Shown in pieces: positions 15,730 to 34,508 of a stretch of DNA of 37,118 nucleotides. The notes beneath the pieces were generated by a model that saw nothing but the letters and a program-made list of their open reading frames with translations, was not told the DNA's origin and did not search any database. This stretch comes from a virus. Every line of letters begins with the position of its first letter. The stretch's first letter is position 1. The stretch is from IMG/VR virus record IMGVR_UViG_3300009788_000204, positions 1-37,118 of that record; one strand, 5' to 3'. The translations under genes and the position numbers were made by a program.

Positions 15730-16392
15730 ATGAAAAAAATGAGAATCCTCACATGTTTACTGGCTGTTACTGTTGTTGGTGGAATACTTTTTGCCGCCAG
15801 CGGAACAATCGTAACGTGGACCGGTACTGGCTCGCGTAACAATACAGTTGAATGGACGATTGAGTCCCCAACGGTTGGGACCGCTGCTGAGTTACTGCCA
15901 GGAGCGGACAACGCGAACGATATTGGGAGTGTTACCAAAACTCTTCAAAATCTGTATTCGACCGAAGTGACGGCGTATGGTATTGATTTCACAACTGGGA
16001 CAGCTTTAATCGATACCGAAAGTCGTGGAATTCGGATCTCAGCTTATTTGGCAGGGACAGTCGATGCCGAGCAGGGTGATCTTTTAATTGGAGATGCTCC
16101 TGTTGGCGATGAAATGGCGGTTCGCGTTGCATCTGCAACGACTGACTTAACAAGCTGGGTTGGAATTGCTGTTGCGGCCACTTCGACTGGAAGTGCTGTT
16201 GCTATTTATACGTATGGCTATGTTCACGCATTAACCACTGGCGCTGTAAATCCAGGAGATACGCTTGTAAGCTCAAACACCGAAACGGGGTATCTTGGGG
16301 CTGACACCACGCCCACCACAGGGGCCGATGTTGGCGTAGCGATGGAATATGGAACGGCTGCGGGCGGATTAACACTAATTCGATTACGTTAA
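15730..16392 (+). CDS. Decoration-like (DUF2190-type) protein with signal peptide
   Basis: 220 residues. The first 23 are a textbook Sec signal: KKMR, then a hydrophobic run LLAVTVVGGILFA and a small-residue end before SGT. The mature part is beta-rich, with GDLLIGDAPVGD, a V-x-V-ASATT segment and VHALTTGAVNPGDTLVSS, which resemble DUF2190 and other small capsid decoration beta-barrels. If exported it could not simply decorate cytoplasmic capsids. CAGGAG lies upstream. The family call is moderate, the signal peptide clear. Confidence 0.65.
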   Translation: MKKMRILTCLLAVTVVGGILFAASGTIVTWTGTGSRNNTVEWTIESPTVGTAAELLPGADNANDIGSVTKTLQNLYSTEVTAYGIDFTTGTALIDTESRGIRISAYLAGTVDAEQGDLLIGDAPVGDEMAVRVASATTDLTSWVGIAVAATSTGSAVAIYTYGYVHALTTGAVNPGDTLVSSNTETGYLGADTTPTTGADVGVAMEYGTAAGGLTLIRLR

Positions 16393-16452
16393 ATAAAAAT
16401 TGAGTCGTTCATTGTTTCCAGGTGAACACTAAAATATTGAAAGTAATTAATA

Positions 16453-16980
16453 ATGAAATGGTTTGCATTTCTTTTTGTGTTTTTCGCCAGCTTGTCAATG
16501 GCTTTGGCCGGAAGGCCCAGAGTCCCTGTACCTAATACACCCGACCTGGTTCATCAAAACGATCAAGATCTGATTGATAAGATTGAAAATCTTTCACGCC
16601 TCCTCGGACAAACAACGTCCTCCGCCGTTACCACCAGCACCGATTTCCCAACATCAGGTGCATGGGGAGATCTAGCCTTGGTCAGCTTAACAGTCGGGGA
16701 TTGGCTTATAAGCACTCAAAGTTTTCATGTGGATAATGGCGCGACATTAACAAGTTGGCAAATTGGCATTTCAGAGAATGCTGGAAATTCTGCGGTCGGA
16801 TTGGAATTGGGAGATAATCGCGGAATTCGAGTATCCCCTCCATTGACGGATCAAATGGGCATTTCAAGTTATCAAACCAGCCTTTCAGCAGGAGCCACTT
16901 TCTATTTCAAGTATCGATCAGACTATACAGGCGGTCCTCCTCAAGCAAGAGGACGTATATCGGCGGTGAGGGTTAAATGA
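16453..16980 (+). CDS. Virion protein with signal peptide, 175 aa
   Basis: Signal peptide MKWFAFLFVFFASLSMALA with likely cleavage after ALA. Mature part has a coiled-coil stretch (about residues 35-55), then beta-rich Gly/Thr/Ser sequence (FPTSGAWGDLALVSLTVG). The stop overlaps the next ATG by 4 bases, so it is coupled to the adaptor. The upstream ribosome binding site is weak. No family is recognised. It may be a tail or fibre component. Confidence 0.65.
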   Translation: MKWFAFLFVFFASLSMALAGRPRVPVPNTPDLVHQNDQDLIDKIENLSRLLGQTTSSAVTTSTDFPTSGAWGDLALVSLTVGDWLISTQSFHVDNGATLTSWQIGISENAGNSAVGLELGDNRGIRVSPPLTDQMGISSYQTSLSAGATFYFKYRSDYTGGPPQARGRISAVRVK

Positions 16981-17702
16981 ATTTAATAAAACGAACATTA
17001 TTGATATTAATGCTATGTGCGCTGAGTCGTCCTTTGGTGGCGCTTGACCTGGGAACCATTCGGGATGAGATTCGAGTTCGAATTAAAGATGTCGGGACCA
17101 GCGGCCAACGGCGACGATTTACTGATGTCCAGTTAAATTCATTCATCAATCAAACCCAGCGAGACATTGTTAATGTTACATGGGCGGTTAAGAAATCCAC
17201 TGATTTTCTTCTGGTCGAAAATACCACTTTCTATACAATGCCAACTGATTTTATTACCGTTGAGAGGCTTGTTTTCGAGAACAGGAATTTGGAAGAGAGC
17301 AGCATTAACGGCCTGGATTCCAGATTTAATAATGCCGACTGGCGGACAACGGACGGTTTCCCCGAAGTCTATTTTAGGGATACTCAGCGTCCTGATGAGA
17401 TCGGATTTTACCCATTCCCGGATGATAGCGGGAATTCAACGGGGACGGTGGTGATGGGATATTTCGCAATCGCACCCGATCTGTCCAGCGATACGGACGA
17501 GCCGTTCGATGCAATTAATCGGCTTCAGCAATATGGCGATATTTTGGTTTATGAGCCGGTGTACAAAGTATTTCTAATTGAGGGAGAACCGGACAAAGCG
17601 CTGGAATATCGATCTTATTACGAAGCAAGGTTGGAGTTAATGGTCAGCCTCGAAGGTCAAAGGCCAAATTTTAAACCGGGGTTTTCTTCTCAAAGGCAAT
17701 GA
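16977..17702 (+). CDS. Head-tail adaptor-like protein with signal peptide
   Basis: 241 residues. Residues about 1-23 are signal-like (NLIKR, then hydrophobic TLLILMLCALSRPLVA). The mature part begins with LGTIRDEIRVRIKD, then RRRFTDVQLNSFINQTQRDIV, the pattern of the phage adaptor family (DUF6682 type) that connects portal to tail: a helix, a charged loop, then the N-x-x-Q-R-x-I-V helix. The role would be to link portal and nozzle. An exported adaptor is unexpected, because the portal is cytoplasmic. It overlaps its neighbours by 4 bases on each side. Confidence 0.65.
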   Translation: MNLIKRTLLILMLCALSRPLVALDLGTIRDEIRVRIKDVGTSGQRRRFTDVQLNSFINQTQRDIVNVTWAVKKSTDFLLVENTTFYTMPTDFITVERLVFENRNLEESSINGLDSRFNNADWRTTDGFPEVYFRDTQRPDEIGFYPFPDDSGNSTGTVVMGYFAIAPDLSSDTDEPFDAINRLQQYGDILVYEPVYKVFLIEGEPDKALEYRSYYEARLELMVSLEGQRPNFKPGFSSQRQ

Positions 17703-20224
17703 AAAAATTACTATACGCTTTCTTCTTAACGTCGCTCGTAGTCTTCGCCACATCTGCCGCCGAGTTCGAAATAAAGGACTTGGGCGGTGGGATGTGGTCG
17801 AACGCTTCTTCTAACCGAATCCCTGATAACGCTTCCGAATTAATTCAAAACTTTTACACTGACGTTGAAACGATTGCGATTGAACGCAATGGATATGAGA
17901 AACGAGATTCCACCGAATTGGGCGGAACTGAAAAGGTTTCTGGTTTATGGGAATTTGTCGATACGTCCGGAGCCCAGTGGATTATCTCTTTTTCATCTCG
18001 AACATTTTATAGAAATGAAATCGGTGGGACTCCAACAGCCTTTGGACTGGTTTCTACTGTCGATACGATTCCAGAGGCCGCTATTAATCTAGGCCGTATC
18101 TGGTTTGTGAATGGAACGGATGACTTATGGTGGTTTGATGGGACGAGTACAGGAAATGTTACAAGCGTTCCGTTGGGAGAAATTATCGTGGCTTGGCGCG
18201 AACGAATTGCGATTGGAAAGATTGGCGCGGCACGATCTACCGTCCGATTTTCTGCTGATGGGGATGGAGAAAATTATACATTGGGCGGAAACCCAACGGA
18301 TCCGTTCGCTCTTTCGATTGGTGGGGGGGACGATGGATTCCCCGTAACATGTATGTGGTCATCCTACATCGACAATCTCATTATTGCCAGAAAACGTGAC
18401 TTGTGGGCGCTGTCGGGATTTGACCAAGCGGACATAGAACTACGTCAGATAAATTCCGAGATTGGCTGTATCCAGGGACGTTCAATGCGGGAGTTTGACG
18501 GTTCCCTTATATTCATGTCAAACCGCGGTCTTGAAGAAATGAGAGGGATTACCATTGAACATATCTCTGAGCCCATCCGAGATATTACGGATCATATTGT
18601 AAAAAGTATTCAAAACGAGCGGAGTCTAGTAAAAACAACAGCATCAGATTGGGATGCCGGGACAACTGAAACAACAATTTACATTGATACTGAATCTGCC
18701 AATGGATCGATTGTTGTCCCATTCCCAGATGATTTCGACACGTTTAGAACAGGAGATGATTCGACAAAACAAGTTTGGATTTCAACAATTCAAGGAACTG
18801 GTTCACAAACAGACCTCATAACGGTATTAAATTCAAATCTTAGATTACGGATGTCGGCGACGGGCTCAGGACAGGCTATTGTTCGGACAGCGACGACAAC
18901 CCATGATTTATCGATCACTGGCGGAACGACATTTTTTTTCGATATTGATGGAATTACGAATTCGGGAGCTTCAGACAATTTTGCTAAATTCCATTTTACG
19001 CTTACCACGGTTCCGATTGGAGTTCCTTGTTGCGATGCAGGAACTCAGCTTGAAACAGGCACGCATTGGTCTATTATATTTGTATCAACCCCCCTGTTCC
19101 CTATTTTTGTCGAATCAAATTCAAGTGATGTTGCGATTGATGCGTTCCAGCAGACAGGATTATCAGATCCGGTTGAGTTTGCGTTTTTTATTGATTCTTC
19201 TAATTATCAATATACAATTGGTGCCTCATCAATCATTAAAAGAGGTACCCATGCTTGGTCGAATCCGCGGGTATTCGTAAATCTTGTATTGGATTTAACC
19301 AGTTTAGATACCGGGAATCCCTTCACGGCTGACATTGGTAATTTCAATATCGTCCCACAAACATTTACATACATATCTCCCGTATTCGATGTGGGTACTG
19401 AAATTGCAGCGTGGGGTCTAGCTTTAATAGAGGAGAGCGCTTCTTCAGGTGTTTCTTCGTATGAATTTAATTCTTCAGCCAATTCAGATATAAATTTATT
19501 TGATTCAACGGCTTGGACTTCCATTGTATCCGGAGAAATTCCAACAAATTCAACTCAACCATTTGCGGCATTTAGAACGGCGGTGGCTATTACAACACCA
19601 ACCCAGAATTATTCATTGGATTTACTTGGAATCGCATGGACAGAAGGAACGCTTATTCAGCCGATCGTTTCGTGGAACCATGACCGTCGATACTGGCTGG
19701 CCTATACGACCAATACGTCAGCAGGAGCAACCAATGATCGAGTGATTATTTATCAGCGTAATAGAACCTTTTCGTTATTGAATGGGATCAACGCTCTTTC
19801 ATTCGCAACATGGCGGAATGATCTTTATTTCGGAAATTCTGATTCAACCGGCTTTGTATATAAATTTGACGCTGGCAACAATGACGACGGTAGTGATATC
19901 GAGTCCAAGATTATTTTCAAAAGCTATGACCTTGGGACTTGGAATCAAGACAAAGATTTCAGGAATTTATACGTCAACTTTCTGGGGGGATCTTCCGGCA
20001 GCTTATCATTGACGTATGATTTGGATCGAAGTGGAAATGTATTTTCCCTTGGGTCCGCGCTCATGACAGAAGGAGTGGGCCAGGTTGCCGCCAAATTTCC
20101 ATTTCCATTATCAAACCCTGTTCAAGGACGAGAGATCCAATATACTTTGACGAAGAGCGGAACAGGGGATAGACTTAAATTATATGACCTGAAAACACAA
20201 TTCAGCATATTGGAAGCGAGGTAA
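17699..20224 (+). CDS. Nozzle / tail-stabilisation-like beta-rich protein with signal peptide
   Basis: 841 residues. Signal MKKLLYAFFLTSLVVFATSA, cleavage near AEF. The mature N-terminus (DLGGGMWSNASSNRIPDNASELIQNFYTD, shown in two parts: DLGGGMWSNAS and IPDNASELIQNFYTD) is the start seen in podovirus tail proteins of the beta-propeller type, followed by repeated W-x-F-V-D and D-G-x-W-like elements, for example ALSIGGGDDGFP. Such proteins form the tail tube or nozzle attached below the adaptor. It ends in a beta-rich C-terminus. Overlap with the adaptor is 4 bases. Confidence 0.65.
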   Translation: MKKLLYAFFLTSLVVFATSAAEFEIKDLGGGMWSNASSNRIPDNASELIQNFYTDVETIAIERNGYEKRDSTELGGTEKVSGLWEFVDTSGAQWIISFSSRTFYRNEIGGTPTAFGLVSTVDTIPEAAINLGRIWFVNGTDDLWWFDGTSTGNVTSVPLGEIIVAWRERIAIGKIGAARSTVRFSADGDGENYTLGGNPTDPFALSIGGGDDGFPVTCMWSSYIDNLIIARKRDLWALSGFDQADIELRQINSEIGCIQGRSMREFDGSLIFMSNRGLEEMRGITIEHISEPIRDITDHIVKSIQNERSLVKTTASDWDAGTTETTIYIDTESANGSIVVPFPDDFDTFRTGDDSTKQVWISTIQGTGSQTDLITVLNSNLRLRMSATGSGQAIVRTATTTHDLSITGGTTFFFDIDGITNSGASDNFAKFHFTLTTVPIGVPCCDAGTQLETGTHWSIIFVSTPLFPIFVESNSSDVAIDAFQQTGLSDPVEFAFFIDSSNYQYTIGASSIIKRGTHAWSNPRVFVNLVLDLTSLDTGNPFTADIGNFNIVPQTFTYISPVFDVGTEIAAWGLALIEESASSGVSSYEFNSSANSDINLFDSTAWTSIVSGEIPTNSTQPFAAFRTAVAITTPTQNYSLDLLGIAWTEGTLIQPIVSWNHDRRYWLAYTTNTSAGATNDRVIIYQRNRTFSLLNGINALSFATWRNDLYFGNSDSTGFVYKFDAGNNDDGSDIESKIIFKSYDLGTWNQDKDFRNLYVNFLGGSSGSLSLTYDLDRSGNVFSLGSALMTEGVGQVAAKFPFPLSNPVQGREIQYTLTKSGTGDRLKLYDLKTQFSILEAR

Positions 20225-20228
20225 AACT

Positions 20229-21764
20229 ATGGCTAATAACGATTTAACATCTATTCCAGACAATCCATTTGCTGTTCCAAATCCAGTGACCCTGCCCAGC
20301 CCGGAGAATTTCGGACCTATTTTCGTCGGACGGCCTGTTGCCCCGTTCATTGATGCCAGAACAGGGGGAGATATATTCCCCGACAAGGCTCCAGCTCCAA
20401 CAACAGACACCTTTGATGCAATCAGGGACCGTCTTAACCAGCCGAACCAAATTGCGCCTCTCCCTTCAATCCCGGAAGCTGGGAAACTTGCATTGGCTGA
20501 ATTTGAAAAAGGGGTTTCAGCGATTTCTCCGGATGCAGGAGTTCGCCCTGAGATTCAACAGGCGTTAGACGTTTTAAGGCAAAATGCAGAAAGAACCAAA
20601 GCAACCAACATATCCCAAGCGGAAGCATTGGCCGGACGACGAGGCTTGCAGGGTTCTTCTATCGAACAATTTGGTGTTGCGGAGGCGGGAGCCGCGTCTG
20701 ATTTGGCGACGCGAACATCCGAATCTGAACTGTTACTAAAAAATATCGATGCACAAAGATTTGAAGCCCAGGCGTTCTTTGATCGCGCTAACAGAATCGA
20801 CCAGATCGGCAGCAATCAAGAAATCGCTCGATTGCAAGCCGAGGCCAATCGTGGGAATAGACAGGCGGAGCTTGAGTTGCAGCGCCGTCTTGCTGAAGCG
20901 GGCTTAAGTGCTGATGAGCTCAACACCCAGAGAAACATTGATTTGCAGCTTCAACAGTTAGAAGTCGAACGCATTCTGGGCGAACGGGCTTTAGCGATTA
21001 ATGAAGAGAATATTCGTCAGGCCGAAGAAATTGCCCGTAGAATGTCAAGAGATCAACTTATCACTAACATTATCGGCTCGTTTGGTCCTTCCATATTATT
21101 TGGCAATCAAGGAATTCTTAAAGGTGGTGGAGGTGGAATTTTCAAGCCATTGGTAAGTGCCGGGGTGGGTGCGGTCCAAAAAGGGATTTCGGGTCTCCAG
21201 GGTATTGGTAGGAATCTATTTGGCGGCGGTCCAAACATCTCTCCAGGTTCTACTGGTCTGAGTGGGAACTTATCTTTACTTCCATCTGGTGGAATTGAAC
21301 CTGGTGGTCTTGGTGCTTCTGGAACAAATCTCCCAAGCTTCGAAGGTGCCGGAGGAGGCACGGCAGGGGCTGCAGGGGTAGGTACATCCGGCGCTGCTGG
21401 AACAGGTGCGACCGGGACAGGCACAAGGGCATCCTTCAGTGCCGGTCTAGGTCGGTTTGGCGCTGGAGCCTTGAATCTTGGGGCTGGTTTTGCTGGAAGT
21501 GCCCTTGGGCGACAGGCATTTTCTGCTACACAGAAATCAGATGCCCTTGGCTCGAACCTTGGATCTGCCATATTTGGCACCGTCGGATCTGCCTTTGGAC
21601 CCGCTGGAACCCTCGTTGGATCTTTCATTGGTGCGGGTATTGGAAAATTCGGAGCAAGAGCCGTTCGCGGGATTGGCAAACTCCTCAGAGGTAAATCAAC
21701 TCGAACGTTTAGAAATATAAAGAGAGAAGTTTCGAAAGTCGCAAAGAAAATCTTCCCGTTCTAA
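20229..21764 (+). CDS. Ejection / internal virion protein A (Gly-rich)
   Basis: 511 residues with no signal peptide. The N-terminus is Pro-rich and disordered, the middle (about 100-270) is Gln/Glu/Arg-rich helical coiled coil, and the C-terminal half is Gly/Ala/Ser-rich with hydrophobic helices (AGSALGRQAF, GTLVGSFIGAGIGKFG), ending in a strongly basic tail (IKREVSKVAKKIFPF). The architecture resembles short-tailed-phage ejection proteins (T7 gp14 or P22 gp7 class) that are packed in the head and enter the cell with DNA. The assignment is architectural. Confidence 0.6.
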   Translation: MANNDLTSIPDNPFAVPNPVTLPSPENFGPIFVGRPVAPFIDARTGGDIFPDKAPAPTTDTFDAIRDRLNQPNQIAPLPSIPEAGKLALAEFEKGVSAISPDAGVRPEIQQALDVLRQNAERTKATNISQAEALAGRRGLQGSSIEQFGVAEAGAASDLATRTSESELLLKNIDAQRFEAQAFFDRANRIDQIGSNQEIARLQAEANRGNRQAELELQRRLAEAGLSADELNTQRNIDLQLQQLEVERILGERALAINEENIRQAEEIARRMSRDQLITNIIGSFGPSILFGNQGILKGGGGGIFKPLVSAGVGAVQKGISGLQGIGRNLFGGGPNISPGSTGLSGNLSLLPSGGIEPGGLGASGTNLPSFEGAGGGTAGAAGVGTSGAAGTGATGTGTRASFSAGLGRFGAGALNLGAGFAGSALGRQAFSATQKSDALGSNLGSAIFGTVGSAFGPAGTLVGSFIGAGIGKFGARAVRGIGKLLRGKSTRTFRNIKREVSKVAKKIFPF

Positions 21765-21773
21765 GGAGATATG

Positions 21774-22301
21774 ATGGATATGAATAAAACGATGCTCGTA
21801 AAAATCGCATCAGCGTTATCTGCCCATACGCTTGAAGTAAAGCATATCGGGCCTTATATCTTCAGGCGTATAGTCCACATGCCAGTCACAAAAGTGAATG
21901 AGTTTGGGGCTCTCATTGCTACATTCATTCGAAAGTCTGGTGAGTGGGACGCGACGGTTCAACAGACCATGCTGAAGATTGATTCGCTCATGAAGTCAAA
22001 GCCGGATGATGTTTGCTGGTACGTGATCGAAACGAACTCCAAGATGATCGGCTATTTCTACGCCGAAATTACTACCGGAGACTACGACGAGATATGTTGT
22101 TATATTCACCATGTCTACATTGACCCCAAGGCCCGGCACTTCAACCTGTTAAAAGAAGTGGAAAGCATTCTTGTTAATTTTGCCCGGCGCAGGGGTGCGC
22201 TTGACTTACGCTGCCTCACCGGACGAATCCCCAGAGCGTTCTTTAAGAAGTTAAGCGGAGACTGGAAGATAGACGCAATGAGATTGAGACGATGTATATA
22301 A
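21774..22301 (+). CDS. GNAT-type acetyltransferase-like protein
   Basis: About 175 residues; start at 21774 or 21771, both behind GGAG. The strand-helix order is typical of a GNAT fold: VCWYVIETNSKMIGYFYAEI, then CCYIHHVYIDPKARHFNLLK in place of the acetyl-CoA loop, then helix, then a last strand and helix (LDLRCLTGR, FFKKLSGDW). The usual R-x-x-G-x-G/A loop is not clean (KARHFNLLKE), so cofactor binding is uncertain. It lies within the ejection module, and GNAT-like genes are found near virion genes in other phages, but the substrate is unknown. Confidence 0.5.
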   Translation: MDMNKTMLVKIASALSAHTLEVKHIGPYIFRRIVHMPVTKVNEFGALIATFIRKSGEWDATVQQTMLKIDSLMKSKPDDVCWYVIETNSKMIGYFYAEITTGDYDEICCYIHHVYIDPKARHFNLLKEVESILVNFARRRGALDLRCLTGRIPRAFFKKLSGDWKIDAMRLRRCI

Positions 22302-22320
22302 AAAGGATAATTGTATCTGC

Positions 22321-23004
22321 ATGATTGCGGCTGGACTCAATAAGGATTATGGAGTGCTTGCTGCGGATAGCGCGAGCTATTCGCCGGAAGACGGAAAAAT
22401 CGAATATGAATCAGGAAAACTTTCCCTAATTCGAAATCGATACTTAATGGCATTCGTTGGAACGAACCTCTACTTTACGAGGATGGATTGGAAACGTTTC
22501 GACCTGCCGTTGAAGAACTTATCGCTTTACTTACAGGGATATCTAAGGGAGATAAAAACAGATGTGGAAAATTCGCTCAAAGAATCGATTAAAGACGAGC
22601 AGGACTCGAAACCTAATTTTTGTCTGTATGTCCTTGGGCTTCACAATCAGTATCCTACTTTGGTTCAACTCAACAGCTTCAAAGACTTCGCCCCGCGATA
22701 CTTGTGGTCAGATAATGGGATGAAGTTTTCGACTATGTTGTATGGAAATGACAATCCTGAGAAGGGTGAGATTTTTAAACAGTCCACCCAGTACATGAAT
22801 GAATTGTCCAAAGGATATGAGAGTCATACGCCCGGACTCGTTGCAGAGATTTTAACACGCGGAATTTATAAAAAAGCAGACTTAGAAATGAAGATCGGCG
22901 ATAAAAGAAAATACGCCGGTGGGGTTGTCAACGCTGCTTTTATATCAAAAACAGGCAGTATTCAAATGCTTTCAGGTTTGGAGGTCGTCAATGGCACAGG
23001 GTAA
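22321..23004 (+). CDS. Proteasome-fold (Ntn-hydrolase-like) protein
   Basis: 227 residues. The start MIAAGLNKDYGVLAADSASYS matches the first strands of proteasome beta / HslV subunits, in two pieces: IAAG and GVLAADS. The next landmarks are K33 in ESGKLSLI, then a strand YLMAFVGTN (the usual AG turn), and a C-terminal region GGVVNAAFISKTGSIQML. Catalytic proteasomes carry Thr at mature position 1; here the chain begins with Met-Ile, so a catalytic Thr is not visible. The ribosome binding site AAGGA is 13 bases from ATG. It could be an inactive structural relative or need other processing. It overlaps the next gene by 14 bases. Confidence 0.5.
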   Translation: MIAAGLNKDYGVLAADSASYSPEDGKIEYESGKLSLIRNRYLMAFVGTNLYFTRMDWKRFDLPLKNLSLYLQGYLREIKTDVENSLKESIKDEQDSKPNFCLYVLGLHNQYPTLVQLNSFKDFAPRYLWSDNGMKFSTMLYGNDNPEKGEIFKQSTQYMNELSKGYESHTPGLVAEILTRGIYKKADLEMKIGDKRKYAGGVVNAAFISKTGSIQMLSGLEVVNGTG

Positions 23005-24499
23005 TATTCAACTTCGCAGTATAACACCCGCATTCAATTCAATTAATCAGGCACTTCAACAACGAGCGCGTCTGGCTCTCCAGTCGCCCCCATCGGGCCT
23101 GGGAACAGCGGCGGCGGCTTCGGGTGCTGTCAAGGACATTGCTGTTGAAGAAAGAGGGCGTCAAGGACAGGAAGATCTGCTTCGACTCAGAGCAGAATTA
23201 GAAAAAGAGGCTGCTGAAGCCAGACGAAATTTTGACAGTCGGTTCGAGGTTGGGCTTAAAACCGAAGAAGATCTAATAGAAGCTGCTGATGCGCTTGGTA
23301 TCTCTACTGATGTCCTGCAACCACTTTTTGATAAAGATAATCCTATTATGTTTAAAGATGCGAAAACAGCCGAGGATGCTTTCACCAGGGCCGCAACTCG
23401 CGCACTTGGACTTGAAGCCGCAGAGCTTGGACAACGGGAGCCGGGAGCCGTTGAGGTTCCAACACCTGGGCCGGTTCAGTCTCAGGCGGGCGATACACGA
23501 ATCCCCGTAGCAACTGGAGCCCCCCCACCCGGAGATCCAGAAGGACTTCTTGAAGATGTTCCACTTAAAGGACTGACAAATGAACAGAAAATTGAAGCGC
23601 TGCAAGCCAATATCGATGCTCTTAATGTTCAGTCAGGGGATATCAAGACAAAGCGTTTTCGTCTTGTCCCGGTTGAGGGGCAAGATGGTATCAGTCGGTG
23701 GGTCAAATTTGATACTGCGGGACAAATTGCATTTGCACCAACAGGAGAGGAGCCGATCGTTGGAAAAGGAGAAAAACTTTTCACAACTCCCGGAACACAA
23801 GAAAAGACTCTCCTTACCAGAGGAAGAAAAAGTATTCCTATTACTGGCCCAGAAGCCACCCCAAAGGGAGAATTATCGACTAGGTTTAATCAGTTAAATC
23901 AGAGACAGAAGAAAAAACTCGAAGGGCTTGAAACTGAGTTAACGAAAAAAGATATATTCAAATCGGCAAGATTATCTAAGGCAACGGCTGGGCGGATACG
24001 ACTTCTATTAGATCAAGATTTTGCTTCTTTAACAGAAATAACAAAAGCAAATATCGCCAGATCTATTGCTGGAGAAAAAGGCGTTTTGACCGATGCCGAT
24101 ATTGCGCGTGTTGGCGGATCCCAGGCGTTCCTTGACCAGTTCAAGATTGATTTTGCAAGAATGTCTAGCGGCGTATTTGATGAGAAAACATATAACGAAT
24201 TCCGGGCAGCTACGGATTTAATCATTTCTCAGGCAAATATATTTGAAGACCTCGCAGTGTCGGATGTCGTTAATGATGCAAGAAAGGGAATTCTTGGCAG
24301 TGTTGACGAGAAATTCATCCGGGATTTTGTTGAAGTTCCAGATGCAACGGGACTGATTTCCCCTGACCTTGTTGGGATTGATCCCCAGAGCGTTGCGGAA
24401 GCCTTGGTATTCCTACGCGAAGAAGGGTTAGAGCCAACTCAAAATTCAATTTTACGTGCATCTCGCAAATTCGATTCAAAAAGAAAGAAAGGTAGATAA
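22991..24499 (+). CDS. Ejection / internal virion protein B
   Basis: 502 residues from ATG 22991, with GGAGG upstream. The in-frame ATG at 22919 lies inside the previous gene and is unlikely. Mostly helical and Ala, Glu, Arg and Leu rich, with a Pro-rich linker (about 150-200), then helical coiled coil. It has no signal peptide or membrane span. Position between two other ejection-type genes suggests an internal core or ejection protein. The stop overlaps the next start by one base. Confidence 0.55.
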   Translation: MAQGNIQLRSITPAFNSINQALQQRARLALQSPPSGLGTAAAASGAVKDIAVEERGRQGQEDLLRLRAELEKEAAEARRNFDSRFEVGLKTEEDLIEAADALGISTDVLQPLFDKDNPIMFKDAKTAEDAFTRAATRALGLEAAELGQREPGAVEVPTPGPVQSQAGDTRIPVATGAPPPGDPEGLLEDVPLKGLTNEQKIEALQANIDALNVQSGDIKTKRFRLVPVEGQDGISRWVKFDTAGQIAFAPTGEEPIVGKGEKLFTTPGTQEKTLLTRGRKSIPITGPEATPKGELSTRFNQLNQRQKKKLEGLETELTKKDIFKSARLSKATAGRIRLLLDQDFASLTEITKANIARSIAGEKGVLTDADIARVGGSQAFLDQFKIDFARMSSGVFDEKTYNEFRAATDLIISQANIFEDLAVSDVVNDARKGILGSVDEKFIRDFVEVPDATGLISPDLVGIDPQSVAEALVFLREEGLEPTQNSILRASRKFDSKRKKGR

Positions 24500-26643: not shown

Positions 26644-26657
26644 TCAAAGGAGAAACT

Positions 26658-27263
26658 ATGAAGAAATATTTATTTTTATTTGGTGTTTTACTGCTGGCCA
26701 GCAATCAGGTCCATGGGGTTATATTCGACCACTTGCCAGAAAGAACGGTGTTGGTTAAATATGACTTTGACGTAGCGGCGGACATCAGTACGACAACCCT
26801 TGCCATTGATTTATCCGATACAACCAACTGGCCTCACAGCGACACCGGGTTTTTAAATATAACCAACATGAGAATTTCAGTTGATAAGACAGCCGCCTCA
26901 ACCGAAACCATAAAGGTTGGTGTTGTCAATTTTGTCAACGCATCGACTGGATCTGTCACCTGGTTTCATGATATCGAAAACGAGTCAAATGTTTCAAACA
27001 CAAATAATACATACCAGGTCAATCTTGCGCCTGTTTATTACAGACTCCAGGTTAAGTCAAATGGAAATGCGGCTGATGGAGATACCCCGTTTGTTTTTTC
27101 AAATGATACAACGGCCGGATCAACAACATTTCAAGATGACCTCGTTTTGCCCAGTACCAATGGAGATACATTCCCAGGGGCGGGCGACATTGTTATCGAG
27201 GTTAGCAATGGGGTTGTCGCTATTACGGTTGTAGCGGAGATATTTTACCATGCAGAGAAATAA
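26658..27263 (+). CDS. Exported virion protein (fibre module)
   Basis: 201 residues with AAAGGAG upstream. Signal MKKYLFLFGVLLLASNQVHG with cleavage near VHG-V. The mature part is beta-rich, with Thr, Asn, Asp and Ser throughout (for example TETIKVGVVNFVNASTGSVTW) and no Cys. It starts the fibre block after the ejection module. A beta-sandwich tail or baseplate-like component is likely, but no family is recognised. Confidence 0.6.
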   Translation: MKKYLFLFGVLLLASNQVHGVIFDHLPERTVLVKYDFDVAADISTTTLAIDLSDTTNWPHSDTGFLNITNMRISVDKTAASTETIKVGVVNFVNASTGSVTWFHDIENESNVSNTNNTYQVNLAPVYYRLQVKSNGNAADGDTPFVFSNDTTAGSTTFQDDLVLPSTNGDTFPGAGDIVIEVSNGVVAITVVAEIFYHAEK

Positions 27264-27509
27264 ATGAATCCACTTGATATTTCTTTAACAGCGGCTTACT
27301 TTGGGAAGACACCGCCCACACAACGGTTCACTTATAATGCAAATGGACAGGTTGAATTTCATGGAATTGCTCAGAGGGGGTCAGGGGATTCAGCCGCAGC
27401 CTGGTATGTGACCAAGTCAACTTTTAATAACAGCAACCAAGTTACAGATGTTAAAGTCGCACCGCAATTATCAATCTGGAATAATCGGGCCACGCTTACC
27501 TATGCATAA
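27264..27509 (+). CDS. 81-aa hypothetical protein in the fibre block
   Basis: The ATG follows immediately on the previous stop. The composition is beta-strand-like (FTYNANGQVEFHGIAQRG) with no signal peptide. It overlaps the next gene by 8 bases. It may be a small connector or chaperone for fibre assembly, an inference from position only. Confidence 0.5.
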   Translation: MNPLDISLTAAYFGKTPPTQRFTYNANGQVEFHGIAQRGSGDSAAAWYVTKSTFNNSNQVTDVKVAPQLSIWNNRATLTYA

Positions 27510-27918
27510 ACTTTTTGGATTGTTTATATTTCTTAGTTTAGCAATCGGGAAATTATCGGCTACACCAATTCCTGCGCTTCAAAATGTCTACAATCCTTTT
27601 TCGGGCCGACAGGATTTTATTGTTGAATACACATCCTCAACTCTTCCTGCCGGGTCAAGCAATTACGTTATTATTCAACCAGATCAAGCAACAACTCAGG
27701 ATGGACAGTTTAATGTTTCGTCTGGAACGATACGAGAAAAGCTCATGTTTGATACGGATGGGGATACCTATTTTCAATTAACGGGCGATGATTTGTTTCT
27801 TTTTGTTCATGGATCATTACGACAGACCTGGACTACGGTAGACGCAGAGGAGTTTTTATTGTTAGAGAATGGCGATTTTATACTTCTAGAAAATGGCGAC
27901 AAAATAATTTTGGAGTGA
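27502..27918 (+). CDS. Exported small fibre-type protein with LLENG repeats
   Basis: 138 residues from ATG 27502. The signal MHKLFGLFIFLSLAIGKLSA is clear. The C-terminus holds two LLENGD units (FLLLENGDFILLENGDKIIL), a motif often found at the ends of phage tail and fibre proteins. It also shares the FNVSSGT sequence with the next large fibre, where FYVSSGTV occurs twice. A role in fibre tip or attachment is likely. Confidence 0.6.
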   Translation: MHKLFGLFIFLSLAIGKLSATPIPALQNVYNPFSGRQDFIVEYTSSTLPAGSSNYVIIQPDQATTQDGQFNVSSGTIREKLMFDTDGDTYFQLTGDDLFLFVHGSLRQTWTTVDAEEFLLLENGDFILLENGDKIILE

Positions 27919-27925
27919 TGCCATT

Positions 27926-30900
27926 ATGAAAAAGATATTAATATTCATATCTGTTTTTTCCTTCCTCAGCATATCGAATGCTGTGGATACTAAGGTATCC
28001 GATCTAACTGAAGACACAGCACCGACGACAGATGATCTTCTTTATACAGTAGACGATCCTTCAGGAACTCCAGCCAGTCGCAAGGCCACGATTGCCAATG
28101 TCCTGGACAACGCCATCAAATTGCAGGATACCCTCCAAACCGGTGCTACGTTTTATGTCTCATCGGGGACCGTTGAATCGGGGTTTATGGTCAATGGTGA
28201 ATTAAACCCAGCGGGTGGTGTTACTGACGGAACTCTAGAGGAAGCGGACATAGGCGATTTGACCCATACAACAGATACGGGTCCGTCTCCCGATTGCTCC
28301 GGCACCACAACATATCAAGACGGGGAAGCGGGATGTGATGACATCAGCGATGTTTATGTTGATGGAAGCGATACGATATCAGGAGATGGAACGGCTACGT
28401 TTAATCCGGGTGGTGCGACGACATTAACCGTTACGGACGATTCGCACAACCATGCGACAGGCACAATAACGACAGACTTAATATGGGATACAACTGTTTT
28501 GCAGTCGGGGTCTACTTTTTATGTTTCATCTGGAACTGTTGATGCGGAACTAAATGTCCCTGCCGATACGATTGACGCGATAACAGAAATTGCTTCAGCC
28601 CTTAAGACAGGAAGCGATGCCACCATAGTGACCGGAACCTCCGGGAGTACCGGCGACTGTGTGGAGTGGGATTCCAATGGTGATATTGTCACAGCGGGAG
28701 CGCCATGTGGAACCAGTGGAGGAACAGCATCAACATTGGAAGTATTAATCGAGCCCGTTTCTTCATCTCCTACGGCAACTATAAATCTCAGTAGCGATAC
28801 GTTTGTGGGGGTTGCCGCGTCATCAACCATGACCATTACCATGAACTTTTCCTCTATAACGGCATTGGGTCAGACGATTGACTTGGCGGATACGGGTGAA
28901 ATTACAGGAACACTTGCCGTTGGCAATGGTGGATCGGGCGCTACGTCATTAACCGACGGTGGCGTTCTTTTGGGATCTGGCTCTAGCGCGTTCACTGCTT
29001 TGGGCGTGTTGGCGGATGGGTCAATTATTGTTGGTGACGGCGCAACTGATCCCGTTGCCTTGGCTGCTTTTACGAACTCCACTGGAGATTTGATTCATGA
29101 GGCGGGCGGATTGGAAGCGGACGTATCGGCCTTTGCTGGGGTTGTGGCGGTTAATGGAGGCTCAACGGTTGAGGTCAATTCCAAGGCAGAGTTGGAAACC
29201 CAGATCGCTGACGTTGCCGACTTTGCAGAAGCCGATGGAGATACGTTTACGGGTGTCCATGATTTTGGCGGAGCGACTTCACTTGAGATCGTTAATGGGA
29301 CAGGCCCCAATGTGGATACAGAAGGTCAGGTGGAGATTACAACCGATGCTTATACCACAACAGGATCCAGCGGAACCATCACATTCTATTCCAATGGGAC
29401 GACATATTATGTGGCGGCCACAACGGGCGTTGCCTCTGATAATAACATTGTCAAATTTGATGCAACTCTAAATCAGTGGAGCCTGGAGGCCGATGCTGGT
29501 GGCGGAGCTTTTGACGATACAGGTGATCCGATTGTTCAAAACACCACTACCAAGGATGTCCATGTAGGTGATGGCGCTGGGACATTAGCGGGGAAATTGG
29601 AAATTGGAGGCGATGCCGATCAGCCTCAGCTTGTAGTCGAAGGGTTCTCACCTCAAACCGATTCTTTGGCTATCTTTCAACAGGATGACGATACGGAAGT
29701 GACTACGATTGAGGATAGTGGACTTATAACTACTCTTGTCGGCATTGATGCGATTGGTGCTGTTGATTTCGATATTGCATCGGCGGACGTTACGGACGTG
29801 ACGGTGGTTACGGATGGAGGAACCGTTATTCTTGATGGGGATATAACCCAGGACGCCGGGACCACGTTGTTCATGGGTGGACTTTTAGATGCAACAGGTA
29901 ACGTGGATATGGATTATGGATCGGCTGACATTGACGACCATACCTTTACAACAGACGGTACGGGTACGGCTGAGTTTGTTATTCCAGCCCAGTCCATTGA
30001 CTCAACAGAAATCCTGAATGCAACATTAGTCGATGCGGACATGGCGGACGAGGCATTGGACGCCGATAAGATTGTCGATGATACGGTTGATGATAATGAC
30101 CTTGATGTCGTGGCAGGTGGGACGGGAGTTTCAACTTTAGCAGATGGATCTGTCTTGTTGGGTTCAGGAACAGGGGATATTACAGCCCAAGCCTTGGCCA
30201 CAACAGAGATACTCATCGGCGACGGCGTGGGAGATCCCACCTCGGCAGCATTAAGTGGTGATGCCACCATGACTAATGGCGGTGTGGTGACGGTTGTTGA
30301 CGACTCCCACAATCACGTCATAACCAATATAGACGCATTCACTAAAGCGAACCTGGAAACCCAGACTTCAGATGTAGCTGACTATGCCGAAGCGGATGGA
30401 GATGTTTATACAAATGCTCATGATTTTGGTGGTGCGGGAAGCCTAGAGATTCCCCAGGCTGCTGTTCCTACTTTGGATGCGGTTGGTGAAATAGCACTTG
30501 ATACATTATTAAATGATTTCCAGCCCACGGTTGCCTATGCCACTTCGACAACCGCTGGCGAGATGTATATGGTGGCCATCTCAAGTACCGAATATCATTC
30601 TGTGGCGGACAACGAGATCGTTAAATATGACGCAGCTTTAAATCAGTTCCGATTGGAAACAGAGACAGCCGGTGGCACTGGTGCATTCAGTGACGCAGGG
30701 GATCCGATTGTTCAGAATACAACAGGAAAAGATGTTCACGTAGGTGACGGGGCCGGTACGTTAACAGGAAAACTTGAGGTGGGCGGAGACGCAGACCAAC
30801 CCCAGTTGGTTGTTGAACAACATTCAGCACAAACAGACGACCCATTTATAATTCAACAAGACGATGACGCGGAACTATTCAGTATTTCTCCTAGCCCGTC

Positions 30901-31570
30901 CATTAAATTGTTGGAGGTTGCCGATGCCCCAGGCGACACAGCAAACTATGGTCAGATCTGGGTTAATCTGGCGACGCCCAATGAATTGTTTTTTACTGAT
31001 GATGCAGGAACAGATTTTCAATTAGGAGCCGGAGGCACAGACACAAACGCACCCAAACTTTACTCATTCTCTGCGGCCGGTTTGCTGGCTCATATCCCAG
31101 ACGGCGTAGCTGAGTTTGACGGAGTGGCTCCGGTAACTCAAGATGATGGGACTAACCTTGATATCTGGGTTGCTTCGTTTGATGATACCGCAGACGAATG
31201 TAGGGGTTTCCAGATTATCATGCCCGAAGATATCGATACGTCCGGTAGCGCTGAGTTTTATGTGACGTGGTATTCTCAAACAGCAACAACGGGGAGTTCG
31301 ATGTGGTATGTGGCGGTATCAAGCGCGTCAGAAGGAGAAAGCTGGGATTTCATCCCTGGCGATTTCCCGGCGGCGTCGGATGCGGTTCAAGGAACAGTTG
31401 ATCTTGTAACAGAAACAACCTGGACGGATACGATTTCAGCTTTGGGCTGGCTTGCAGAGCAAACAGTAATTGGCTGGTTCTGTCGTGATGGAGACGGAGA
31501 TCAGGGAACAGATGATTTAGTCGGAGATGCGGAGGTGATTGTTTTCGGGATCAAGGTGCCCAGGACATGA
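27926..31570 (+). CDS. Giant tail fibre-like protein with duplicated domain
   Basis: 1214 residues. Signal MKKILIFISVFSFLSISNA, cleavage before VDT. The start of the mature part (DLTEDTAPTTDDLLYTVDDP) is typical of fibre proteins in many phages. The middle is beta-repeat sequence of Asp, Gly, Thr and Val with FYVSSGTV repeats, two DSHNH motifs and a duplicated block (residues about 420-572 and 807-964) carrying DVHVGDGAGTL and GGDADQPQLVVE. The C-terminus (from about residue 1040) differs and may be the receptor-binding tip. Alternative: a large exported adhesin. Confidence 0.75.
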   Translation: MKKILIFISVFSFLSISNAVDTKVSDLTEDTAPTTDDLLYTVDDPSGTPASRKATIANVLDNAIKLQDTLQTGATFYVSSGTVESGFMVNGELNPAGGVTDGTLEEADIGDLTHTTDTGPSPDCSGTTTYQDGEAGCDDISDVYVDGSDTISGDGTATFNPGGATTLTVTDDSHNHATGTITTDLIWDTTVLQSGSTFYVSSGTVDAELNVPADTIDAITEIASALKTGSDATIVTGTSGSTGDCVEWDSNGDIVTAGAPCGTSGGTASTLEVLIEPVSSSPTATINLSSDTFVGVAASSTMTITMNFSSITALGQTIDLADTGEITGTLAVGNGGSGATSLTDGGVLLGSGSSAFTALGVLADGSIIVGDGATDPVALAAFTNSTGDLIHEAGGLEADVSAFAGVVAVNGGSTVEVNSKAELETQIADVADFAEADGDTFTGVHDFGGATSLEIVNGTGPNVDTEGQVEITTDAYTTTGSSGTITFYSNGTTYYVAATTGVASDNNIVKFDATLNQWSLEADAGGGAFDDTGDPIVQNTTTKDVHVGDGAGTLAGKLEIGGDADQPQLVVEGFSPQTDSLAIFQQDDDTEVTTIEDSGLITTLVGIDAIGAVDFDIASADVTDVTVVTDGGTVILDGDITQDAGTTLFMGGLLDATGNVDMDYGSADIDDHTFTTDGTGTAEFVIPAQSIDSTEILNATLVDADMADEALDADKIVDDTVDDNDLDVVAGGTGVSTLADGSVLLGSGTGDITAQALATTEILIGDGVGDPTSAALSGDATMTNGGVVTVVDDSHNHVITNIDAFTKANLETQTSDVADYAEADGDVYTNAHDFGGAGSLEIPQAAVPTLDAVGEIALDTLLNDFQPTVAYATSTTAGEMYMVAISSTEYHSVADNEIVKYDAALNQFRLETETAGGTGAFSDAGDPIVQNTTGKDVHVGDGAGTLTGKLEVGGDADQPQLVVEQHSAQTDDPFIIQQDDDAELFSISPSPSIKLLEVADAPGDTANYGQIWVNLATPNELFFTDDAGTDFQLGAGGTDTNAPKLYSFSAAGLLAHIPDGVAEFDGVAPVTQDDGTNLDIWVASFDDTADECRGFQIIMPEDIDTSGSAEFYVTWYSQTATTGSSMWYVAVSSASEGESWDFIPGDFPAASDAVQGTVDLVTETTWTDTISALGWLAEQTVIGWFCRDGDGDQGTDDLVGDAEVIVFGIKVPRT
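29183..29641 (+). repeat. Fibre internal repeat, copy 1
   Basis: Residues about 420-572 of the giant fibre. Landmarks: KAELETQ, FAEADGD, HDFGGA, IVKFDATLNQW, GDPIVQNTT, KDVHVGDGAGTL and GGDADQPQLVVE. Copy 2 shares the landmarks in order. Confidence 0.8.
30344..30817 (+). repeat. Fibre internal repeat, copy 2
   Basis: Residues about 807-964 of the giant fibre, with KANLETQ, YAEADGD, HDFGGA, IVKYDAALNQF, GDPIVQNTT, KDVHVGDGAGTL and GGDADQPQLVVE. DNA has diverged mostly at synonymous positions, so the duplication is old and kept under selection. Confidence 0.8.
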
Positions 31571-32295
31571 GGATAATCCTAGCGTTTTTATATTTGATAT
31601 CTGTTTCATGCCCACTTTTTTCTGCGTCGTCGGCGAGTAGAAACTTTGGAGGAGATGGTTCGTTCGATCATATCGATATAGGAACTTTTGATTTATCAGG
31701 AGACAGCCTTACTTTAATGGCATGGTTTAATACAGATACCAATGACAAATGTGGTGGACGAATTGTGTCAAAGGCTACATCGGGTGCCGCCAATGACCAT
31801 ATTTGGATGCTGGGCATGTGTTCGGACGGAAACTTAAGAGCCAGGATTCGGTTTGGCGGGACCACGACAACTCTTGTCGATACCGGGGATTTAATTAGTG
31901 AGAATGTATGGCATCACGGCGCAGTGGTTTACGATGGGGCAGACATAATTCTATACCAGGATGGGGTTAATATTGCCAGCGTGGGTCAAACAGGAGATTT
32001 TGATACCGATGGTGCTGTGACTGTAAGCATTGGAACAAATGGATCTGAAACAAATGACAATACTTGGCAGGGTGAACTTGTTGATGTCAGAATATACGAC
32101 AGGTCTTTAACGGCTCAAGAAATAAACGAAGCCATGCTATGCAGGAACAGCAGTTTCGATACCTTGGAAGCAGGTTATACTTTACTTGGAGACGATTTTA
32201 CTGATTTTAGCGGGAATGGGCATGACGGGACTGACAGTAGCACTGGAACATCAAACGAGTCCCCCGGAACATCATGGTGTGGGGGAGCTTCTTAA
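31567..32295 (+). CDS. Exported LamG-like (concanavalin-type) lectin
   Basis: 242 residues. Signal MRIILAFLYLISVSCPLFSA with cleavage near SASS. The mature part follows a LamG / laminin-G-like beta-sandwich: DIGTFDLSGDSLTLMAWFNT, then RIVSKATSG, VWHHGAVVYDGADIILYQDGV and ELVDVRIYDRSLTAQEI, which is the typical end of such domains. It binds cell-surface glycans in related proteins, here probably host receptors. It overlaps the fibre gene by 4 bases and the next by one. Confidence 0.75.
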   Translation: MRIILAFLYLISVSCPLFSASSASRNFGGDGSFDHIDIGTFDLSGDSLTLMAWFNTDTNDKCGGRIVSKATSGAANDHIWMLGMCSDGNLRARIRFGGTTTTLVDTGDLISENVWHHGAVVYDGADIILYQDGVNIASVGQTGDFDTDGAVTVSIGTNGSETNDNTWQGELVDVRIYDRSLTAQEINEAMLCRNSSFDTLEAGYTLLGDDFTDFSGNGHDGTDSSTGTSNESPGTSWCGGAS

Positions 32296-32855
32296 TGAAA
32301 AAGCTTTTATATTTAATAATATTCCTACCTCATTTATCCTTTGCAGGAATTGGTGCGTGCCACGACGGAGCCGGGAATATATTAAAGATTGCCAAAGGAG
32401 TATCAACAACAGGATTCCTAGGCGAAACGAATTGTGAATATTACAATGATCAATCAGCTAGCTATGATGCAATTGAAACGGTTATCAATACGGTTCCCCG
32501 GATCTACATAAAGTTTACCACTGAGCCCGTTGAGATGACGCAAGGAGAAAAGGATGCGGTGGATACGGCAAGAGCAGCCAATAGCATAGCGAGTATTCGA
32601 GTCCGCGCTAAGTCCCGATTCGATGGTCAGACAACAACGGGTCAATCTCTTCGATGTATGGCAGATATCACAAAACGAGAGGTTAATATTGTCAGAGGAT
32701 GGCTTGCTGATTTTAAGGCAGAAGTTATTTCTTCCACAAGTCTGTCTGATTTCCAGTTCAGGGTTGCAGGATTACCAACTTTGCCAGACCGAACCCTGGC
32801 TCAACTAAAAACTGAGATCCAGGATTGTGTTGATGACGGGGACGTTGATGAGTAA
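32295..32855 (+). CDS. Exported virion/envelope protein, 186 aa
   Basis: ATG 32295 in TAATG coupling with the lectin gene. Signal MKKLLYLIIFLPHLSFA then GIGACHDG. The mature part has three widely spaced Cys and a helical end with DIQDC-like composition (LKTEIQDCVDDG). No family is recognised. It probably belongs to the fibre block. It overlaps the next gene by 8 bases. Confidence 0.55.
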   Translation: MKKLLYLIIFLPHLSFAGIGACHDGAGNILKIAKGVSTTGFLGETNCEYYNDQSASYDAIETVINTVPRIYIKFTTEPVEMTQGEKDAVDTARAANSIASIRVRAKSRFDGQTTTGQSLRCMADITKREVNIVRGWLADFKAEVISSTSLSDFQFRVAGLPTLPDRTLAQLKTEIQDCVDDGDVDE

Positions 32856-33249
32856 ATCATGGGTGAAAAGCAATAGGATAATATTATTTATTTTATTCTT
32901 TTTACCCGTTTCTCTTTTTGCTGATGGCAGTACTATTGAAACAAATCTTGATATTGATGGTGGGTTCCAGGTAGCCATATCAAGTAAGACAGCGAATTAC
33001 ACTAAGACCGTTTCCGATCATACAATTCTTATTGATGCAGCAAGCGGTAATATTACGGTTACGCTCCCCGCCGCATCTACGGTAACAGGAATTATTTACA
33101 ATATTAAAAAGATAGATGGTTCTATGAATACGGTCACGGTCGATGGCAATGGTTCAGAAACGATTGACGATGGACTCACGGCAGTCCTGACAACTCAATA
33201 CGAGAGCATTTCGGTTCAAAATGACGGAGTTTCCTGGTGGATACTTTAG
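32848..33249 (+). CDS. Exported fibre-tip type protein
   Basis: 133 residues from ATG 32848 (GTG at 32827 is another in-frame start). A positively charged N-terminus precedes the signal core IILFILFFLPVSLFA, likely cleaved before DGS. The mature part has the repeated beta pattern ITVTLPAASTV, NTVTVDGNGSETIDDG and Q-Y-E-S-I-S-V-Q-N-D-G-x-S-W-W, common in phage tail fibre tips. The final Trp pair is typical of such domains. Confidence 0.6.
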   Translation: MSKSWVKSNRIILFILFFLPVSLFADGSTIETNLDIDGGFQVAISSKTANYTKTVSDHTILIDAASGNITVTLPAASTVTGIIYNIKKIDGSMNTVTVDGNGSETIDDGLTAVLTTQYESISVQNDGVSWWIL

Positions 33250-33250
33250 T

Positions 33251-34507
33251 ATGAAAAAACTCTTATCAATCATTACATTATTATTATTCACATCCACTCA
33301 AAGTTCTTCCACTTACCAACCTTTCAAAGATAGACCCTTAACAGCCTTTGGCGATTTGAGAGTGGCTGAATTATCTCCCGTGTTTCAAGGATCTTTCGAA
33401 TATACGGTAGACAATACTGACTTAAATACCAATACGGTTACTTCCAGTGGGACCGTGACCCAGGCTTCTGCCATGGCTGTGATGACGACAACGACAAACA
33501 CGGCGAGTACGGCAATGTTTGAATCGAAACAACATGCAAAATACCGTGCCGGACTTGGTGGCGTAGCAAGATTCACGGCCCTTTTCACTTCCCCGGTCTC
33601 GGCAACAGAACAATATATTGGGATTGCCGATGAGACAGGGAGTTCCGCTGCTTTTAAGAATGGGTTTATGGTGGGATATGATGGGACAAGCTTCGGGTTG
33701 CATCGGTTTCAGAATGATTCCAAAACATCCGTCGCTCAATCATCTTGGGATGATCCCCTGGATGGAACGGGTGCCACTGGAATGACGCTAGATCAAACTA
33801 AAATAAATGTTTTCTTTATTCAATTCCAATATTTGGGAGCCGGAGCGATTACGCTTTGGGTAGAAGATGACGACACGGGTGAGATTGCCAAAGTTCACAC
33901 GATTGACTATGCCAATACAAACACATCTCCATCAGTGCATAATCCGAATTTTCATTTCACGATGTGGGTGAACAATGCAGCAACGACAACCGATCTCGTC
34001 ATGAAAAGTTCTTCTTATGCCTATTTTATAGAAGGCAAAACTTCTTTTATCGAATTACACCAACCAGAAAACTCAAGTGGCATTAAAGAGAAAACGACAG
34101 TCACAACAGAAGTGGCAATTTTTACCATCAGAAACAAAAGTACATATGCTTCGAAAACCAATTTCATCGATATTGTTTTCTTGAATGTTTCCGGGAGTAT
34201 CGAAGCATCTTCAGCAAATAATTTAGGGAATATCCGGATTGTAAAAAATACAACGTTGGGAGGGTCTCCCTCATACTCCGATATCAATACATCCGATTCG
34301 GTAATAGAAATAGATACGGCTGGTACAACACTTACTGGCGGGAAAGAACTTTTTGCTGATCTGCTGGCAGGTAAAAACGATGAATTTAATAAGAGTTTAA
34401 TAGATGCCAAGATCATTTTAAATCCAGGGGATACGATAACCATCGCCGGGACTAGCGCCAACAGCGCGACGATAGATGCCTTATTGGTGTGGAGGGAACT
34501 GTTTTAG
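33251..34507 (+). CDS. Exported virion/fibre protein, 418 aa
   Basis: ATG 33251, with GGTGG upstream. The N-terminal region MKKLLSIITLLLFTSTQSSS is signal-like but its cleavage site is less clear. The mature part has FGDLRVAELSPVFQGSFEY, then SKQHAKYRAGLGGVARFTALF and GFMVGYDGTSFGLH, a set of landmarks I have seen in many uncharacterised phage virion proteins. The second half is beta-rich and ends in LLVWREL. It is probably a fibre or surface protein. Confidence 0.6.
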   Translation: MKKLLSIITLLLFTSTQSSSTYQPFKDRPLTAFGDLRVAELSPVFQGSFEYTVDNTDLNTNTVTSSGTVTQASAMAVMTTTTNTASTAMFESKQHAKYRAGLGGVARFTALFTSPVSATEQYIGIADETGSSAAFKNGFMVGYDGTSFGLHRFQNDSKTSVAQSSWDDPLDGTGATGMTLDQTKINVFFIQFQYLGAGAITLWVEDDDTGEIAKVHTIDYANTNTSPSVHNPNFHFTMWVNNAATTTDLVMKSSSYAYFIEGKTSFIELHQPENSSGIKEKTTVTTEVAIFTIRNKSTYASKTNFIDIVFLNVSGSIEASSANNLGNIRIVKNTTLGGSPSYSDINTSDSVIEIDTAGTTLTGGKELFADLLAGKNDEFNKSLIDAKIILNPGDTITIAGTSANSATIDALLVWRELF

Positions 34508-34508
34508 A

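Follow-up and report, generated by a model that had tools for sequence, protein, structure and literature searches.

Exterior genes and their N-termini

The DNA considered here is the IMG/VR virus record IMGVR_UViG_3300009788_000204 from position 1 to 37,118, this whole stretch of 37,118 nucleotides being called the window, and the genes written below in the form start..end lie on its + strand. The terminase, portal and capsid of tailed phages are all present (phrog_979 for the terminase large subunit, TerL; phrog_371 for the major capsid protein, MCP; homology for the portal), and by its TerL, MCP, portal and a head-to-tail adaptor of the family PF24175 the sequence reads as that of a short-tailed tailed phage. 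Between 15730 and 34507, eleven genes start with Sec-type N-termini and, by computation, these N-termini are confined to genes that read as those of the virion exterior.

The first of them, 15730..16392 (signal score 15.9, on the scale explained below), encodes a signal peptide, a linker and a C-terminal domain (residues ~98-219). While the protein has no sequence family, Pfam Phage_cement_2 reaching E 0.068 at best and in one homologue, its C-terminal domain was modelled by AlphaFold with a predicted local distance difference test (pLDDT) mostly of 70-86; Foldseek aligned it to 6qyy (E 1.2e-5, TM-score 0.71 by target), the structural matches being the base of the phi29 head fibre gp8.5 and the capsid decoration proteins of HFTV1, Pam3 and TW1. 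The predicted fold is that of a capsid-decoration/head-fibre protein, by virtue of which the signal-bearing set would cover most of the virion exterior. It is followed by a fibre-like protein (16453..16980, score 14.4; aligned with counterparts in the relatives L019 and L022) and by the adaptor (16977..17702, score 14.9), where PF24175 SU10_adaptor covers residues 24-225 with 76.3 bits for a cut-off of 27 and starts, at residue 24, immediately behind the leader; a PDB sequence search with the adaptor profile gave a single weak match, gp81 of phage GP4. A nozzle-type tail protein comes next (17699..20224, score 14.6; phrog_511 E 9e-6 and phrog_5107 E 3e-8, and in a direct profile comparison a weak hit on a known stabilisation protein), for which a PDB sequence search with its profile found no match; its homologues adjoin the adaptor on the downstream side, a position that fits a nozzle.

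Downstream of the ejection genes, the signal-bearing series resumes with a conserved protein of no assigned fold (26658..27263, score 14.2; structure model of low confidence, pLDDT 48), whose homologues in L004, L006, L019 and L028 bear signals too, a small fibre-type protein (27502..27918, score 13.8) and a long fibre (27926..31570, score 15.7) with, in a motif scan, the motif IKLQDTLQTGATFYVSSGTV common to Elusimicrobiota surface proteins. It ends with a LamG/concanavalin-like domain protein (31567..32295, score 14.2; PF13385 E 8.2e-27), a protein of no named family (32295..32855, score 14.9), a tail/baseplate-like protein (32848..33249, score 16.2; phrog_20556 E 1.3e-4) and a virion structural protein of fibre type (33251..34507, score 13.3; phrog_1645 E 5.1e-38).

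An internal control is provided by TerL (5555..7843, phrog_979 E 1.5e-53, score -2.0), the portal as cytoplasmic partner of the adaptor (9133..11379, score -2.7; 48-84% identity in relatives and matching an annotated portal in phage records), a scaffold-like protein recognised by position and composition (12089..12994, score -3.2), the MCP used as marker for the clade tree (14251..15150, phrog_371 E 2.2e-21) and three ejection-type proteins (20229..21764, score -2.7, with homologues also devoid of signals; 22991..24499, score 2.0; 24499..26643, score -1.8), none of which has a signal. Together with the lysin, the signal-less set reads as motor, shell, portal and internal ejection proteins.

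Scores were obtained with a home-made n/h/c scorer, taking into account a net positive n-region, an uncharged hydrophobic core (h-region) and small residues at -3/-1 (c-region). The earlier note on this DNA had listed the eleven starts from the letters, taking terminase, portal, capsid and the three ejection proteins as its control, and both points are upheld: at each start a K/R n-region, a hydrophobic h-region and a small-residue c-region are found, and the scores of 13.3-16.2, to be compared with the 13.7-17.2 that eight Sec signals well known from E. coli obtain, form a group that does not overlap with that of the remaining 29 window proteins (maximum 9.3). In 2,572 internal segments of these proteins, the 99th percentile was 10.3 and three scored at least 13, all within one transmembrane stretch, and shuffles of the eleven N-termini had mean scores of 0.8-5.4. 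With n/h/c architecture, small residues at -3 and -1 and an h-region shorter than a membrane helix, the N-termini have what is expected of substrates of Sec and signal peptidase I (SPI). The choice of Met is supported by Shine-Dalgarno-like sequences, or overlap with the preceding stop codon, at several signal-gene starts; the internal starts preferred in that note proved the plausible ones over the longer mechanical open reading frame (ORF) starts at 27448, 32274, 32827 and 33221.

Other genes of the window deserve brief mention. Residues ~421-714 of TerL seemingly split the protein as an intein (CVSGETLIQTK ... VHSFAVNDGIVAHN|C), its homologues having 470 amino acids and no intein in L003 and 1,155 amino acids in L006; in another frame, ORF 7030-7638 resembles an HNH-type protein by eye. 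The product of 22321-23004 is conserved in the clade (46-54% identity), has no Pfam or PHROG match and, by eye, its start MIAAG..DYGVLAADSA resembles the N-terminus of N-terminal nucleophile (Ntn) hydrolases.

Relatives and distribution of the trait

Relatives were gathered in IMG/VR by alignment searches with the MCP and portal; the adaptor and nozzle, when used one at a time to scan viral contigs, gave no matches, nor did the portal on genome contigs. In a close group with 62-94% MCP identity, the genes that lie after g20 and before the ejection genes, as well as the late fibre genes, carry signals, and TerL, portal, scaffold, MCP and ejection genes are without them. This rule holds in L003, L005, L006, L008/L019 and L004, and also in G009 (= L022/L028/L029), L062, L069 and L070. 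L003, L005 and L004 carry particular weight, in that several exterior genes of these phages cannot be related to those of the window and are still signal-bearing. Some members, L004 among them, are undercounted by the automatic ORF picker; the genes of L004 were gone through by hand, and ORF L008:16191 was handled as doubtful.

The last MCP scan added groups at 38-41% and 31-36% MCP identity, where three lineages at 38-40% (L062, L067/L069 and L070) follow the rule fully and the others mostly do not. On an MCP tree of 66 rows, the phages that follow the rule group together in a single clade (97 in the Shimodaira-Hasegawa-like approximate likelihood ratio test, SH-aLRT), which a careful 43-row MCP tree recovers with an ultrafast bootstrap (UFBoot) of 99 and an SH-aLRT of 97 and with a single change of the trait; the resolution of the adaptor tree is too weak to add to this result. 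Within the signal-bearing clade, MCP identity goes down to 38% and, as all usable relatives put signals on the same gene classes, the trait is evolutionary and not due to chance. The earlier note had named absence of the N-terminal segments in homologues as a refutation; on examination, the segments are present inside the clade and absent outside, as expected for a gained targeting signal.

The sister clade in IMG/VR (L063/L102/L066/L073 and others) has MCPs 38-41% identical to that of the window and shares the order of conserved pre-MCP gene, MCP, g20, adaptor, nozzle and ejection genes, but the adaptor, nozzle and other post-MCP genes of L063 are without Sec signals. Isolated signal-bearing proteins do occur there, with two small ones in L059 (3059 and 6505) and three late ones in L075 (15037-18418), possibly as intermediates.

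Leaders as in-register additions

Homologues of the adaptor and nozzle were collected by iterated profile search. Six distinct adaptors of the clade have leaders and homologues outside the clade are without; the signal-less adaptors of L063, L102, L054, L024 and L099 have their initiator Met in line with, or adjacent to, the predicted mature start of the signal-bearing ones, which indicates that the adaptor signal is a precise N-terminal addition. Likewise, in the 16453 fibre family, a conserved block PR.P.P.T..(I/V).QND.DL starts right at the predicted mature N-terminus, directly behind the predicted cut in three diverged members (window, L019 and L022). Judged from these two alignments, the mature start would coincide with the predicted cut, the predicted mature N-terminus being LDLGTIR... 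in the adaptor and GRPR... in 16453.

Over the clade, 54 of 56 leaders have K/R within residues 2-7, with the hydrophobic core at about positions 7-14, and 44 of 56 have A at -1 together with a permitted residue at -3 (mean of 36 and maximum of 45 in 1000 shuffles). That one leader had lately been copied from gene to gene was considered and rejected; the leaders vary in sequence and are constant in character.

The segments could instead be retained membrane anchors, tails forming as an inner-membrane platform to which heads dock from the cytoplasm, much as T4 prohead assembly starts membrane-bound. This would allow head-tail joining before lysis, and a few h-regions are indeed long, the non-polar run at 15730 reaching 30 residues. 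However, the run is of at most 18 residues in 51 of the 56 leaders, with a median of 12.5 that is small for a transmembrane helix, and the leaders are enriched in Ala-type cut sites. Moreover, the first residue of signal-less adaptors is exactly the mature one, so that a leader left in place would add something extra to a ring subunit; anchoring is therefore regarded as unlikely. A second possibility is that leaders target precursors to Sec and keep them unfolded against premature polymerisation, with assembly in the cytoplasm once processing or slippage has occurred, so that no joining across a membrane is needed. Type I signal peptidase, though, is active on the periplasmic face and cleaved products would end up outside; besides, fibres and the decoration protein bear signals although there is no reason to withhold them from portals, which makes such retention a distinctly unlikely explanation.

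Host and possible origin of the leaders

The fibre encoded by 27926..31570 contains the motif G(A/S)TFYVSSGTV twice, and three further members of the clade have the core TFYVSSGTV. A scan of 84,980 species genomes found the motif in 8 stretches, 7 of them in metagenome-assembled genomes (MAGs) that bear the name Elusimicrobia and the eighth in an unnamed bacterium, and several of the proteins concerned carry export signals themselves. In its longer form, IKLQDTLQ(T/S/A)GATFYVSSGTV is common to this fibre and secreted Elusimicrobiota surface proteins (L036-L043), and this sharing suggests domain exchange or mimicry. In addition, the insert region of the nozzle (17699-20224, profile columns ~500-750) matches Elusimicrobiota frames of 1,159-4,669 amino acids (L135, L138, L139 and L141).

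A nozzle-profile search of 341 Elusimicrobiota genomes uncovered two contigs of interest. In one, of 5.1 kb, adaptor and nozzle are divergent and both bear signals; in the other, of 28 kb, the nozzle has a signal and the adaptor-like protein next to it has none (L143:4396-8153, G215:C117). In view of these two contigs, the trait may have an earlier origin or several origins. Close MCP or portal relatives were not found in the 341 genomes and MAG contigs may be misbinned, hence Elusimicrobiota are the likely, not the proven, host. An effect of the host across the phylum was rejected: five SU10-type adaptors in Elusimicrobiota bins are all without signal, as are the tail-type genes, including a LamG-containing protein, near the capsid gene of a prophage on a 1,643,562-bp chromosome (L046:17779-18702, G094:C1), whose capsid is distantly related (26% identity). 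The trait thus belongs to the phage lineage. A dedicated study of Elusimicrobiota phages was not found in the literature searched.

Both the fibre motif and the match of the nozzle insert to very long Elusimicrobiota proteins could be taken to mean that tail genes came from, or recombined with, host genes for surface proteins that are secreted, their leaders surviving with no function. Yet the adaptor and nozzle, also leader-bearing, are of phage families and not host surface proteins, and leaders variable in sequence but constant in character, with no recent mutual copies, have been kept down to 38% MCP identity, pointing to strong constraint; passive acquisition is consequently very improbable. 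The resemblance of the LamG and fibre domains to host surface proteins might also suit exported proteins that act at the surface or in the periplasm of the infected cell, e.g. for superinfection block, as decoys or in adhesion, besides or instead of in the virion. Against this, it is hard to see what an adaptor, a nozzle or a decoration protein would do outside the virion, and second, unsignalled copies are not seen in the window, leaving little probability to a function at the cell surface.

Proposed assembly in two compartments

Taken as a whole, the data point to short-tailed double-stranded DNA (dsDNA) phages, most likely of Elusimicrobiota, that probably build their virion from two compartments. 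Somewhat more tentatively, we favour a route in which DNA-filled cytoplasmic heads and a Sec-exported, SPI-trimmed periplasmic exterior are joined solely when the inner membrane opens at lysis. Shell, portal, packaging motor and ejection proteins would be made in the cytoplasm, where heads fill with DNA, and the decoration/head fibre, adaptor, nozzle and fibres would be made as Sec preproteins and exported; preproteins of this kind that have an SPI site end up free in the periplasm. Trimming of the leaders by SPI would restore ordinary adaptor and fibre N-termini, after which the exterior proteins would fold or pre-assemble in the periplasm and meet the filled heads when holin and lysin open the inner membrane or, slightly earlier, at the membrane itself. 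Export, cleavage, periplasmic assembly and joining at lysis are what we infer from the N-termini and their distribution. The tail module in the periplasm or membrane that the earlier note predicted, perhaps joined to heads at the envelope or at lysis, is in this sense partly supported. The gains might be access to periplasmic chaperones or no premature polymerisation on portals during packaging, as well as adhesive fibres kept from cytoplasmic ligands.

Regarding lysis, an NlpC/P60 lysin is encoded by 34852..35571 (PF00877 E 1.2e-11); as it has no signal peptide (score 0.9), it should need a holin, and lysin-like proteins of relatives in the equivalent position are also without signal. Small membrane proteins of the window are holin or spanin candidates, including a one-helix membrane protein with a coiled coil, recognised from its sequence and without Sec signal (34476..34973), which has weak Rz-like matches (phrog_214 E 0.008). 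With a signal-less lysin and such candidates, lysis looks ordinary; the holes made by canonical holins are large. In a relative, the protein L019:12672-13277, encoded close to the lysis genes, resembles a class III nucleotide cyclase by eye.

Several points weigh against this two-compartment assembly. The signal calls rest on a home-made scorer, and the name of the nozzle rests on weak profile matches. The claim in the earlier note that the entire module bears signals stands for the eleven genes it listed but fails for a small ORF inside the module (27264..27509, score 1.8), without signal as is its homologue L019:7514, and possibly encoding a cytoplasmic helper; the conserved ORF 13519-14235, directly before the MCP and possibly also exterior, is without signal as well. 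The 28-kb contig from an Elusimicrobiota bin, where the nozzle alone has a signal, departs from the rule too. That the exterior proteins are disulphide-rich periplasmic proteins was examined and rejected: the cysteine count is even in all the mature forms of the eleven window proteins, and over the clade, with 16 of 29 cysteine-containing mature proteins even, parity gives no hint of disulphides. Finally, since the adaptor has to dock on the portal, heads already packaged would have to be closed by a provisional plug, or by keeping their motor, until the membrane opens, and no such element was identified; speculatively, the DNA might be held until joining by a retained motor or by a cytoplasmic plug such as g20.

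Comparison with known phages

In textbook accounts, tailed phages, which have been studied more than any other viruses, join head and tail in the cytoplasm before lysis. If the proposed route is right, this would be the first tailed phage lineage with a secreted tail, as well as a defined phage group for Elusimicrobiota. Signals kept on most exterior proteins over deep divergence imply a different order of assembly and, further, DNA held in heads without a tail plug and a timing of lysis linked to final maturation. The earlier note knew of no described phage group with this pattern, and its statement survives a full-text search of the open-access literature, with subscription papers and preprints outside its coverage, in which no tailed phage group with signals across the exterior was found. 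It is the assembly route that would be new and not its parts, export itself being what we infer.

In eight control phages of related or comparable architecture, 5 of 163 coding sequences score as signals and none is an adaptor or nozzle; two of the five, in the Pelagibacter phage HTVC023P (L031:23484-25559), lie just behind the capsid region and are of no firm family. No signal was seen on any adaptor outside the clade and its kin in Elusimicrobiota bins. The capsid family of the window is shared with four cultured phages, namely Alcaligenes vB_Af_QDWS535, Pelagibacter HTVC023P, Roseobacter CRP-901 and Planktothrix Pag-Yong1, which have the same order of TerL, portal, GroES, MCP, adaptor and ejection genes, with a GNAT gene in some, but no signal on the adaptor or fibre set.

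In SU10, the portal, adaptor, nozzle and fibres form the short tail and the head holds the ejection proteins (PMC9509320). The window resembles this SU10/Kuravirus-type tail by its PF24175 adaptor, far above the cut-off, the candidate nozzle-type protein after it and separate ejection proteins, but differs by the Sec signals on its adaptor, nozzle, fibres and decoration protein; tail proteins of short-tailed Caudoviricetes are expected to be free of export signals and to be made and assembled in the cytoplasm. Similarly, the C-terminal domain of 15730 shares its predicted fold with phi29 gp8.5 and the decoration proteins of HFTV1, Pam3 and TW1 but has a Sec signal and a long linker in front of it. 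Signal-bearing virion proteins are known from the filamentous phages, where pIII and pVIII of M13 follow a route via SecYEG/YidC (PMC8310372). Secretion of the Inoviridae type, with filament extrusion and neither head nor terminase, is nevertheless not what the window encodes, since terminase, portal and capsid are present: filamentous phages have no packaging motor or capsid and their particle is extruded through the membrane, whereas the window phage has a full set of dsDNA head genes.

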